Source: Desulfosporosinus nitroreducens (GTDB lineage: Bacteria; Bacillota; Desulfitobacteriia; Desulfitobacteriales; Desulfitobacteriaceae). Taken from it: a DNA stretch of 64,000 nt. A program made the translations under genes and the position numbers. The notes under the pieces are model-generated. The model worked only from the letters and a program-made list of their open reading frames with translations, was not told where the DNA came from and did not search any database. How positions within the stretch are numbered: position 1 is the stretch's first letter; the number at the start of each line of letters is the position of its first letter. Location of the stretch: contig NZ_JAMHFY010000014.1 of NCBI RefSeq assembly GCF_023897015.1, positions 1 through 64,000 of the forward strand, read 5' to 3'. This document shows positions 4,289-47,176 of this stretch, piece after piece.

Positions 4289-4613
4289 ATGCTTGTTGCA
4301 TCAACGGTGAAGGGTTTTCTTTAGTATCAGAACACGGTATATTATACAAAGAAAATAATAACGAAAAGTAAAGGAATGAACGGCAACCTGAGCGGGACAA
4401 ATCTGGTCTTTATTAAAAGTTCTAAGTATTTCTTACAGGCATTATTTAATTAGTAATATTTTTAGAGTAGACTATTAGAAGGTATTTCAACATAATTTGC
4501 GAATTAATTAATTTAATAAATAAATATTCTAAAGACTTTGTAAATAACTTCAAAATACTGCCTCTATTGAGGTTCGAAAAAAGGGTAATGAAGTCGACGA
4601 AAGAGGTGATTGC

Positions 4614-5771
4614 GTGCGTTCGCTTAAACATCAAATCCTAATATTGTTGTTGGGTTCGCTCTTTTTACTGGCAGTTTGCTTCCTCGCAGTTCTTGGCTGG
4701 TATATGAAAGACCGCGTTGTGGCGGCCACTATAATAAAAGCACAAACAGATTTAACAACCTGTGGAGAAATTATTGATAAGACATATCCTGGCTCATGGT
4801 CAGTGCAAGAGGGGAACCTTTATAAAGGAACTACGAAGATCAACCTTAATAATGACTTAGTTGATTATTTGTCTCGCCTTTCGGGGGACACGGTGACCAT
4901 ATTTTTGGGGGATACAAGGGTAGCGACCACTGTACTCGGTTCAAACGGCGAACGTGTGATTGGGACCAAGGTTTCTGCTAATGTAGCCCAGACAGTACTG
5001 CAGAATGGTCAGACTTATATAGGAGAAGCTAATGTCGTTGGCCAATGGCACCAATCGGGCTATGCTCCATTACGAGCAGAAAACGGAAACATTATTGGGA
5101 TTTTTTATGTAGGAATCTCTCATGCCTATGAACAGGAAATAATCACTCGATCTTTGATTACAATGGCTGTACTGGGATTAGCCTTAACAATTTTGATAGC
5201 ACTTCTCACCTGGTTTTTCATTCAGAGAGTTATCATCAATCCCTTGCATAATATCATGTTAGGAACTCGGGATGTTGCAACCGGACACATGACTCAAAAG
5301 GTCAAAGTTTCCGGTGCCAAAGAAATTGAGGAACTGGAGGATGCCTTTAACCAAATGGTGGAGCAGTTCCAGTCATTTACAGGGGAAATTAATCGGGCGA
5401 CCAGCAGTAATCAAGAAAGTGAACCAATTGAAATTGAATCTGGTACGGTTACAGAGTCGATCCAAAGCAGTGAGGGTGTAATCCAAACTGCCGTCACTGC
5501 TGAGCAAGAGCAAAAATCCGAACTCGATACTGCCTGGTTTATTGCAGAAGAGGAGTTGCCAAAGGGCTTGAATCAAACAACTCTTGTTCAGATAACACAA
5601 TTTTTACAAGCAAATCGCCGGCCTCTCTCTTCGGAGGACGTCGCTGAAGGGGTAAAGCTGACTAGGGTCACAGTACGTCGCTATCTCGAATTTTTAGAAG
5701 AACGTGGACTATTAGTATCTAAACTCAAATATGGTATCGGCAGACCTGTAAAGCTATTTATACCTTCATAA
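4614..5771 (+). CDS. Membrane one-component regulator: single Cache, HAMP and C-terminal CitB/DctR-type HTH
   Basis: Order of parts in 385 aa: TM1 (7-29); extracellular single-Cache sensor (about 35-175, with the SGYAPLRAENGNIIGIFYVG hallmark); TM2 (182-203); HAMP (204-257); a polar linker rich in E/Q/S (260-315); and a winged helix (317-385) with LSSEDVAEGVKLTRVTVRRY and the YGIGRPVKLF end typical of CitB/DcuR/DctR response regulators. There is no kinase, receiver or chemotaxis signalling domain. It should sense a small extracellular molecule and act on DNA from the membrane (inference). GTG 4614 follows AGAGGTGA. A terminator follows, then the formate/nitrite channel gene, a possible target. 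Confidence 0.85.
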   Translation: MRSLKHQILILLLGSLFLLAVCFLAVLGWYMKDRVVAATIIKAQTDLTTCGEIIDKTYPGSWSVQEGNLYKGTTKINLNNDLVDYLSRLSGDTVTIFLGDTRVATTVLGSNGERVIGTKVSANVAQTVLQNGQTYIGEANVVGQWHQSGYAPLRAENGNIIGIFYVGISHAYEQEIITRSLITMAVLGLALTILIALLTWFFIQRVIINPLHNIMLGTRDVATGHMTQKVKVSGAKEIEELEDAFNQMVEQFQSFTGEINRATSSNQESEPIEIESGTVTESIQSSEGVIQTAVTAEQEQKSELDTAWFIAEEELPKGLNQTTLVQITQFLQANRRPLSSEDVAEGVKLTRVTVRRYLEFLEERGLLVSKLKYGIGRPVKLFIPS

Positions 5772-8439: not shown

Positions 8440-8464
8440 ACCACCAACATAACCAATATTTTTA

Positions 8465-8770
8465 ATTGTGATGACGGGGTAAAGTAAACGGAACGGTCTT
8501 TTCAGGGAGGGAGCGTCATAGACTGAAAGCGCTGCTAAAGTATCAACCGTTGAAGGTTCACTCCTGAGCTGCCAGACTGAAACCCTAGGGAAAGTAGGTT
8601 TGGTCGGAGACTTCCACCGTTAAAAGGAAGGGGGTATAAGAAATAGATATTTAATTATATTTTATTTCCGTACTTGCAATGAGGAGGGGTCTTTTACAGA
8701 CCCAATCTGGGTGGTACCGCGAAAAAACACTTTTCGTCCCTTGAGGGATGAGATGTGTTTATTTTTTTGT
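8465..8770 (+). promoter_or_regulatory. T-box riboswitch (apparent Phe UUC specifier) with terminator
   Basis: The T-box sequence GGGTGGTACCGCG is at about 8709-8721, followed by the terminator stem (about 8725-8761, cgtccc/gggatg) and a T run. Stem I carries an AGTA near 8482 and the AGGGAG-type bulges near 8505. After the AACGG/CCGTT helix the specifier side reads GAAGG-TTC-A-CTCCTGAGC, aligned on the B. subtilis glyQS layout (GAAA-GGC-A-TTCTTGAGC). This gives UUC, a Phe codon, followed by the usual A. Uncharged tRNA would let transcription run on into the amino-acid transporter operon. Confidence 0.85.
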
Positions 8771-30065: not shown

Positions 30066-30136
30066 AAACTATGACAAATATTAAAATTTGATTGACATTT
30101 ATTTAAACATTGTTGCATAATTAAACAACTCAATAA

Positions 30137-30357
30137 TTTGATAGAGGCGCGGTTATTAAGAGTAAGTACACTAAGCGATCCAGCGATGAGGTGTGCCGAA
30201 AGGAATAATTGCCGAAGTAAAAGCTGCGGTATAAGGACTTTTACTGGTTATGTATTTAATAGGTACATGACTGTCACCCAAACTTTGGGTGGAGCACTAT
30301 CTCTTAAAGATTGGCTTAGATATTTAAGCAGTTTAGGAGTGCGCTCTTTAAACTGTT
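30137..30357 (+). promoter_or_regulatory. Lysine riboswitch with terminator, controlling lysA
   Basis: The core GATAGAGGCGC (from about 30140), GCCGAAAGG and GCCGAAG turns, and the highly conserved TGACTGTCACC...GGTGGAGCACTATC end (about 30269-30301) match the L-box aptamer, with P1 formed by GATAG/CTATC. The terminator is CAGTTTA/TAAACTG around 30330-30353 plus a T run. Lysine binding should stop transcription before lysA. A 77-codon ORF across the aptamer is not a gene. Confidence 0.93.
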
Positions 30358-46136: not shown

Positions 46137-46164
46137 TTGACAGGAACCGGATTTCAGCTATAAT
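46137..46164 (+). promoter_or_regulatory. Strong consensus promoter for RNA unit 1
   Basis: TTGACA (46137-46142), a 16-bp spacer and TATAAT (46159-46164) are perfect consensus boxes. No protein gene follows for about 1 kb. Confidence 0.75.
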
Positions 46165-46170
46165 GAAGCT

Positions 46171-46320
46171 ATAAAGAGATTATAAAGATTCAGTTTTGCA
46201 AAATAACTTATTGGTCGCGTGCTAGGTAAAGTTTCGATTCATCGAAGGTTTATGCATTGCAATTAATTAAGTCGATGCTGAATTTCGAAGAATTGGAGCC
46301 ACCTAGAAGGGTGGTTTTTG
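46171..46320 (+). ncRNA. Candidate small RNA, about 150 nt (unit 1)
   Basis: Bounded by the consensus promoter and a short terminator (CCACC 46299-46303 with GGTGG 46310-46314, T5). Internal pairings visible: TTCGAT/ATCGAA hairpin near 46236-46250, GCAT/ATGC near 46254-46277, and a closing CTAGGT/ACCTAG pair (about 46223 with 46301). No ORF. It is not a recognised RNA family. Confidence 0.55.
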
Positions 46321-46339
46321 TTGTTGTTATAATGAAAGA

Positions 46340-46876
46340 TTTCCCGCAAAGTTCCTCTCACTAATAGAAGTAAGTCAGTAGTAGTTTGGTCTTTGGGAAA
46401 AGCGTGTTGGAAAGTCGTTTTTGAGTCCGCGTGTCGATGAGCTCGGTAAGTCTAGTCCTAAGATTATCCTAATTGTTGTATGGTTTTTTCAAGTTACTGT
46501 TGAGTGATCTGAAATCTAAATCTTCTCCTTAGTGACTGTTTTTCGATTGTTCCTGGTTAGAACCTAAAGTAATTGAAGAAATAGTGGAGGATTTGTCCAG
46601 ATTAGTTTCATTACCTTAAAAGCTTAGTTTTTGACTGGTTTGCGTTTAGTTAGGTCAAAGTATTGAGATTCCCTTACTAGTTGGTTTACAGAGTGACATT
46701 TATCTCGTTTTGTTTTCGTAGTTGTAAGGAGTTTTTGCTACAACCCTATATTACTCCGGTGAAAAACGTATAGGTTCAGTTTGGTTGACGATTAATCTAG
46801 AGCCGTGTATCCATTAATTCTGGAGGAACTTTGCGGGATTTAATTTTTAAGGCTACTCAATGAGTAGCCTTTTTTC
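46340..46876 (+). ncRNA. Candidate large structured RNA, about 0.54 kb (unit 2)
   Basis: TATAAT at 46328-46333 predicts a start near 46340. TCCCGCAAAGTTCCTC (46342-46357) pairs perfectly with GAGGAACTTTGCGGGA (46823-46838), joining both ends of the RNA. A terminator follows at once (AAGGCTACTC/GAGTAGCCTT, 46849-46871, then T6). Internal hairpins include GTTGTA/TACAAC (46721-46744) and CCTATA/TATAGG (46745-46774). No ORF of note lies inside. The layout is like the ornate large RNAs (OLE, ROOL, GOLLD), but I cannot assign it to one of them. Confidence 0.65.
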
Positions 46877-46984: not shown

Positions 46985-47092
46985 GTGAACTCGTTCAACT
47001 AAAGTTGAACATCGAGACTTCGGTGTGGGAGTCTACCCCCGCCGAAGCAGAGTACGGGGGCCCACTCCCACTTGAAGAAGTGGGAGTCTCAC
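46985..47092 (+). repeat. HEARO/omega-RNA-like repeat, copy F (best preserved)
   Basis: GTGA at the left edge, then ACTCGTTCAACTAAAGTTG, the CATCGAGACTTCGGTG block, GCCGAAGCAGAGTACGG, and the final hairpin CTCCCACTT/AAGTGGGAG (47065-47086) with TCTCACG. It carries no ORF of its own and lies about 85 bp before the start of the Fe-S protein gene. Confidence 0.6.
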
Positions 47093-47176
47093 GACTGTAT
47101 AAATATATCTAGAAATATGGAATTATTTTACATTATGAAATATAATTATATAAAAACAATTACTGTAAGGAGAGCT

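Follow-up and report, generated by a model that had tools for sequence, protein, structure and literature searches.

The window, a stretch of 64,000 nt from Desulfosporosinus nitroreducens, very probably carries an undescribed non-coding RNA gene, whose anatomy can be traced in detail. In all likelihood the element is one gene, predicted to run from a single consensus promoter, with a start near position 46171, to a terminator at 46871. Comparison of homologs shows a predicted clamp helix, P1 (16–19 bp), which closes a long loop and whose pairing and much of whose sequence are kept across genera, whereas the loop inside it appears to evolve freely. The clamped part (unit 2) is preceded in Desulfosporosinus by a 5′ module, unit 1, which is structured too. 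The best overall explanation, held with moderate confidence, is a single-transcript clamped-loop RNA that would act as a stable RNP scaffold or sponge. This adds a new RNA family to Desulfosporosinus and several related anaerobe genera, and the evidence for its helix from comparison of homologs is strong.

In sequence terms the element has the marks of a non-coding RNA gene, i.e., a promoter, a terminator, a conserved structure and no conserved ORF, and both of its units fold into more stable structures than dinucleotide shuffles (z = −3.7 for unit 1 and −3.3 for unit 2). A search of the literature (open-licence papers) found no description of it. An earlier note on this DNA had proposed an undescribed RNA, and this view held up in an Rfam 15 cmscan of the window and 15 homologous loci, which gave no match within the element at the gathering score and only chance-level matches at E values up to 10. 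By that test, it is not an OLE, ROOL, GOLLD, raiA or 6S RNA. The features of the element are as follows.

46137..46164, + strand: promoter TTGACA-N16-TATAAT (12/12 consensus match); no other promoter in the element is conserved
46171..46325, + strand: unit 1, a 5′ module of ~150 nt with the core GCGUGCUAGG-AAAG-UUUCGAUUCAUCGAAGG (BLASTN, covariance model, fold z-score)
46222..46226, + strand: CUAGG, which can pair with CCUAG of the unit-1 hairpin (loop and 5′ arm); putative pseudoknot or attenuator switch
46295..46318, + strand: terminator-like hairpin at the end of unit 1 that probably acts as an attenuator or terminates only in part (fold, U tract, compensatory changes)
46328..46333, + strand: TATAAT before unit 2, most likely not a promoter (window and locus L035 only, no −35 box)
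46342..46357, + strand: clamp helix P1, 5′ arm TCCCGCAAAGTTCCTC (conservation, wobbles, covariation)
46358..46575, + strand: loop region V1, U/G/A-rich and C-poor, site of (GUUAGU/GUCAGU) expansion (52–762 nt in homologs)
46576..46609 (approximate), + strand: 5′ side of the core, AGAAAUAGUGGA (P2), GGAUUUG (internal loop), UCCAGAUUAGU (P3)
46610..46788 (approximate), + strand: loop region V2 (only 27–48 nt in short copies)
46789..46822 (approximate), + strand: 3′ side of the core, GAUUAAUCU (P3), GA, GCCGUGUA (internal loop), UCCAUUA (P2), AUUCU
46823..46838, + strand: clamp helix P1, 3′ arm, exact complement of TCCCGCAAAGTTCCTC (conservation, wobbles, covariation)
46849..46871, + strand: intrinsic terminator of the whole transcript (mean ΔG −14.8 kcal/mol across copies)

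The end-to-end helix of 16 bp that the earlier note had described is exact (46342–46357 with 46823–46838), with a gap between the arms of 465 nt rather than the 466 nt given there. At up to two mismatches, the arm has exactly two matches in the window, compared to 0.04 expected. Both arms persist in 49 complete copies, although unit 2 spans anything from 229 to 1003 nt in them. Within P1 positions 1–15 of these copies, seven positions vary; all 15 occurrences are G-U wobbles when read as sense RNA, and none of the variants pairs when read as antisense RNA, indicating that P1 is an RNA helix formed by the + strand transcript. Moreover, L079 lacks one pair, with a base missing from each arm (TCCCGCAAGTTCCTC / GAGGAACTTGCGGGA), and position 11 is U-A, U-G or C-G across genera. 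Pairing holds in 96.6% of cells across 28 distinct arm pairs, and eight cells carry changes on both sides; the mean in shuffled alignments was 2.6, and none of 500 shuffles reached the observed value. Five of the 17 P1 pairs are invariant, so that the sequence itself also appears to be constrained, beyond pairing. Elsewhere in the seven genomes searched for the arms, we found none but one single-mismatch site. A role of the arm as an operator or as a target in trans is not supported, since it occurs almost only in these elements.

BLASTN searches detected unit 2 in all 30 Desulfosporosinus genomes, at one to three copies each, and gave no match in 16 genomes of the family's other genera. In Desulfosporosinus, unit 1 adjoins it directly upstream nearly every time and was itself found in 29 of the 30 genomes by BLASTN and in 30/30 (52 copies) with the covariance model R1. 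The exact 3′-end pattern, run over 84,980 genomes, returned 33 stretches, of which 32 are labeled Desulfosporosinus and one is from a ‘Bacillota bacterium’ MAG. At four loci (L048, L051, L062 and L063) whole elements are tandemly duplicated, each with its own promoter and clamp.

Outside Desulfosporosinus, R1 found one match of good significance, L124 (E = 4e-7), and a few weak ones, among which L148 is real and L128 looks degenerate. L124 has the whole architecture, including CCCGCAAAGCTCCTCCAG / CTGGAAGGGCTTTGCGGG, and when this locus was used as a BLASTN query, further genera turned out to share its 18-nt arm TCCCGCAAAGCTCCTCCA. In this way, unit 2 could be read at L142 and L143 (one genus), L144–L146 (another), L147, which is cut by the contig end, and L148, as well as with a weaker helix at L149 in another family of the order. 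Unit 1 accompanies it at L124 and L148. At L142, L143, L145, L146 and, less clearly, L149, a promoter-like sequence lies just before the P1 arm and no unit 1 is recognizable. As unit 2 stands alone in these other genera, it appears to be the widespread module, to which unit 1 was added as an optional 5′ module. The covariance model R2, from which the loops were cut out, yielded only one weak partial match in other genera, and the window itself scores 20.5 bits; because R2 cannot span the real loops, this near-empty search is no evidence of absence. The range outside Desulfosporosinus was reached mainly via the 18-nt match and is therefore a lower bound that may prove wider. Going beyond the earlier note, the element is a genus-wide multicopy family with a unit 2 that is found alone in other genera and a unit 1 that is optional.

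The minus strand of L128 (genome G045, ~1500–1620) carries a degenerate unit-1-like RNA without the conserved GAUUCAUC hairpin, and a unit-2-type terminator comes directly after it.

Unit 1 is structured in its own right. Its helices are 96.4% paired across copies with five double-change cells, a number reached in none of 500 shuffles. The hairpin at its end (46295–46318), which the earlier note had called a terminator, is present and shows compensatory changes in its stem, with a mean ΔG across copies of −10.8 kcal/mol and 5.1 T in the next 8 nt. However, it is probably a partial terminator or attenuator and not the end of a gene. The strong hairpin after the 3′ arm of P1 (46849–46871), by comparison, is the terminator anticipated there, and the 8 nt behind it contain 5.4 T on average across copies. 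If the end of unit 1 is an attenuator or a leaky terminator, two RNAs would be made, a short one of ~150 nt and a long one of ~0.7 kb, and unit 1 would either tune the yield of the long one or add a domain to it.

One explanation with a modest chance of being correct takes this further and regards the element as an attenuated operon, in which unit 1 would be a riboswitch-like sensor whose hairpin, by switching with a CUAGG:CCUAG pairing, sets the yield of unit 2. In line with this, both the hairpin stem and the CUAGG/CCUAG complementarity recur with different sequences (g1, L124 and L148), and a U-rich tract follows the hairpin in nearly all copies. The counterparts are GCAGG/CCUGC in L124, where MAFFT aligns the segment matching CUAGG with a gap, and CUGG/CCAG in L148. 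However, the two pairings overlap by two nucleotides only, so that a static pseudoknot fits equally well. CTAGG is invariant in the 40 aligned copies from the genus, which leaves only two other genera to bear on the switch. Riboswitch control of an RNA would also be unusual, and no ligand is known. The CUAGG:CCUAG pairing is therefore suggestive only, whether as a pseudoknot or as an attenuator switch.

In most copies the U tract of the unit-1 hairpin is long enough that termination might be complete; transcription of unit 2 would then have to come from elsewhere. The earlier note had claimed that the region holds two independent RNA genes, one for an RNA of 150 nt and one for an RNA of 0.5 kb with a promoter of its own. 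The perfect consensus promoter noted for unit 1 is confirmed at 46137–46164: each of its hexamers is exact in 48 of the 49 copies (two copies have one mismatch), and the spacer is exactly 16 nt in all of them, whereas the sequence upstream is not conserved across copies. The TATAAT assigned to unit 2 does lie directly before the P1 arm, and the free-standing unit 2 of other genera would also fit a separate gene. However, this hexamer lacks a −35 box and is found only in the window and the near-identical L035, and promoter scores before unit 2 in the 49 copies are no better than those of shuffled sequence (mean 7.24 versus 7.45). Since a conserved promoter precedes unit 1 and none precedes unit 2, we favor a single transcript of ~0.7 kb, and two separate genes seem unlikely.

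Unit 1 also resembles 6S RNA in being long, hairpin-like and ~150 nt in length and in lying behind a strong promoter. This assignment was rejected, as RF00013 gave no match and canonical 6S loci are found elsewhere in 27 of the 30 Desulfosporosinus genomes. 6S RNA is multicopy in some Desulfosporosinus, with six matches in G017, and at L057 a 6S copy (4456–4647) lies ~260 nt upstream of the element.

The excess folding stability of unit 2 sits in P1, and the interior folds no better than shuffles in most copies: z-scores range from −1.0 to +1.4 in ordinary copies, reach +2.2 to +3.1 in L056, L073 and L081, which are expanded by repeats, and are −2.6 and −1.1 in L066 and L072, respectively, which consist of repeats only. 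The variable part of the loop is rich in U, G and A (13% C) and enriched in a short motif, with AGTTAG occurring 274 times in Desulfosporosinus compared to 57 expected. In the few sequences from other genera, TTAGTT (10 versus 2.8 expected) and AGTCAG (6 versus 1.4 expected) are overrepresented. RNAalifold on unit 2 recovered only P1, P2 and P3. The latter two belong to a core near the 3′ end which is common to 47 of the 49 copies and is composed of P2 (UAGUGGA/UCCAUUA), an internal loop (GGAUUUG/GCCGUGUA) and P3 (AGAUUAGU/AUUAAUCU). In the core alignment, for which composites lacking the variable loops were used, 97.5% of cells pair, compared to at most 55% when slid. Whole-structure measures of covariation were not clearly above shuffles, and P2 and P3 are unproven by covariation because both vary too little. 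The core is absent from L066 and L072, where almost everything inside the clamp is made up of ~30-nt repeats (AGGTTAGTTAGTCGAGTTTGTATGA-like), indicating that it is dispensable in some copies or that these copies have decayed.

This interior speaks against the likeness to OLE, ROOL and GOLLD that the earlier note had seen, and against a reading in which the 0.5 kb of RNA would be folded into one intricate and perhaps homo-oligomeric domain. The element shares with these RNAs that it is free-standing, bacterial, several hundred nucleotides long and held by long-range pairing, and OLE is likewise found in Gram-positive bacteria. Its size, the end-to-end helix, the absence of an encoded protein and the conserved internal-loop core would all fit such an RNA. 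So would the palindromic tetramer in the unit-1 loop (CUAG here, UGCA in L124), which recalls described symmetric kissing loops (PMC12286853). ROOL and GOLLD also contain a disordered linker (PMC12286853). However, conservation here is limited to the end helix and a small core, and the remainder is mostly unstructured and freely expandable, as the length range of unit 2 shows. The interior folds even less well in the expanded copies, the hairpin loop of L148 has no palindrome, no Rfam 15 family matches, and neither a universal partner gene nor a phage or satellite context was found. We thus consider an ornate large RNA improbable. The raiA motif/ModT RNA is another conserved, free-standing RNA of the Bacillota, but its conserved fold is intricate and includes two pseudoknots (PMC11706538), and its Rfam model does not match the element.

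No universal adjacent or partner gene and no recurrent internal ORF was found across copies. Downstream genes differ in identity and direction, although similar neighbors do recur. Neighbors in other genera include an rlmL/ypsC-like THUMP protein (L142, L143 and L124) and an uncharacterized 250-aa protein (L143, L144–L146 and L148); Desulfosporosinus neighbors vary and include thiM/thiE-like genes, fabG-type reductases and M42-like peptidases. The names rlmL and those of the window's short-chain dehydrogenase and ferredoxin were tested, and the others were read from sequence. Searches of phages, plasmids and viral contigs gave no match to the element, apart from four viral matches to an arm without its partner arm. 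These results agree with the earlier view that neither a partner gene nor a phage context is involved. It is very improbable that the P1 arms are the terminal inverted repeats of a MITE-like mobile element: perfect inverted repeats, several copies per genome and tandem duplicates would fit, but this reading is rejected by the sense-only wobbles and by a conserved unit that reaches past the arms from promoter to terminator, and the near absence of arms elsewhere, the recurring neighbors and the lack of phage, plasmid or viral-contig matches argue against it as well. An equally slim chance is left to a cis-regulatory leader or a small-protein gene, as the window does have a co-directional gene downstream, but a strong terminator ends the element, the genes behind it vary and no internal ORF recurs.

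Our best guess is that the element serves as a stable RNP scaffold or as a sponge, in preference to a cis-regulator, a mobile element or an ornate cage. Structured RNAs usually show the inverse of a frozen helix around a free loop, and this pattern points to an RNA-binding partner: something must preserve a helix that hardly changes while the long loop between its arms is free to do so. P1 would hold the ends of the RNA together and protect it, and a protein would recognize the helix, because its sequence is kept beyond the needs of pairing. For partners acting in trans, the flexible loop would display its repeated UUAGU/UCAGU motifs as well as the conserved internal loop GGAUUUG/GCCGUGUA. However, the repeated motifs could be products of slippage without a partner, and the function as a clamp-bound protein scaffold or sponge RNA is a tentative prediction.

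Two known classes illustrate these working principles. Y RNAs, which are about 100 nt long, form a long stem from both ends that carries a conserved protein-binding sequence, and have a variable loop. The likeness would be one of working principle only, and the predicted transcript here is longer (~0.7 kb). CsrB/RsmZ-type sponges repeat a short motif many times within a single RNA, namely GGA in hairpins. Here, too, only the proposed principle would be shared, as the element has UUAGU/UCAGU in an open loop, a closing helix and an unrelated sequence. A CsrA sponge is not favored, since the repeats are not GGA. TRAP-like UAG repeats were considered as well; TRAP binding repeats are spaced by 5–6 nt, and the repeats in the element are mostly 4 nt apart.

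More speculatively, the element could stand for a class of bacterial RNAs in which a double-helical clamp of conserved sequence encloses a largely unstructured loop that can expand freely, and lineages tune this loop by amplifying a short motif. Such an RNA might serve as a sponge or scaffold that can be adjusted and whose clamp is bound by a dedicated protein, and in Desulfosporosinus an attenuator might set its dose, acting on a non-coding RNA and not on an mRNA. As a whole, this reading has only a modest chance of being correct.

Close to the element, nested hairpins at 46990–47105 of the window (gttcaactaaagttgaac ... gtgggagtctacccccgccgaag ... cttgaagaagtgggagtct) resemble an IS200/IS605-type right end or a remnant of a TnpB guide-RNA scaffold, and the elements at L058 and L143 have similar sequence nearby. 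At L147, a match to the Rfam family SECIS_3 on the minus strand (442–500) stays below threshold (46.4 bits versus a cut-off of 63) and possibly reflects a nearby selenoprotein gene. The window further contains a T-box leader (8462–8744) and a lysine riboswitch (30134–30307), both above the Rfam gathering score.
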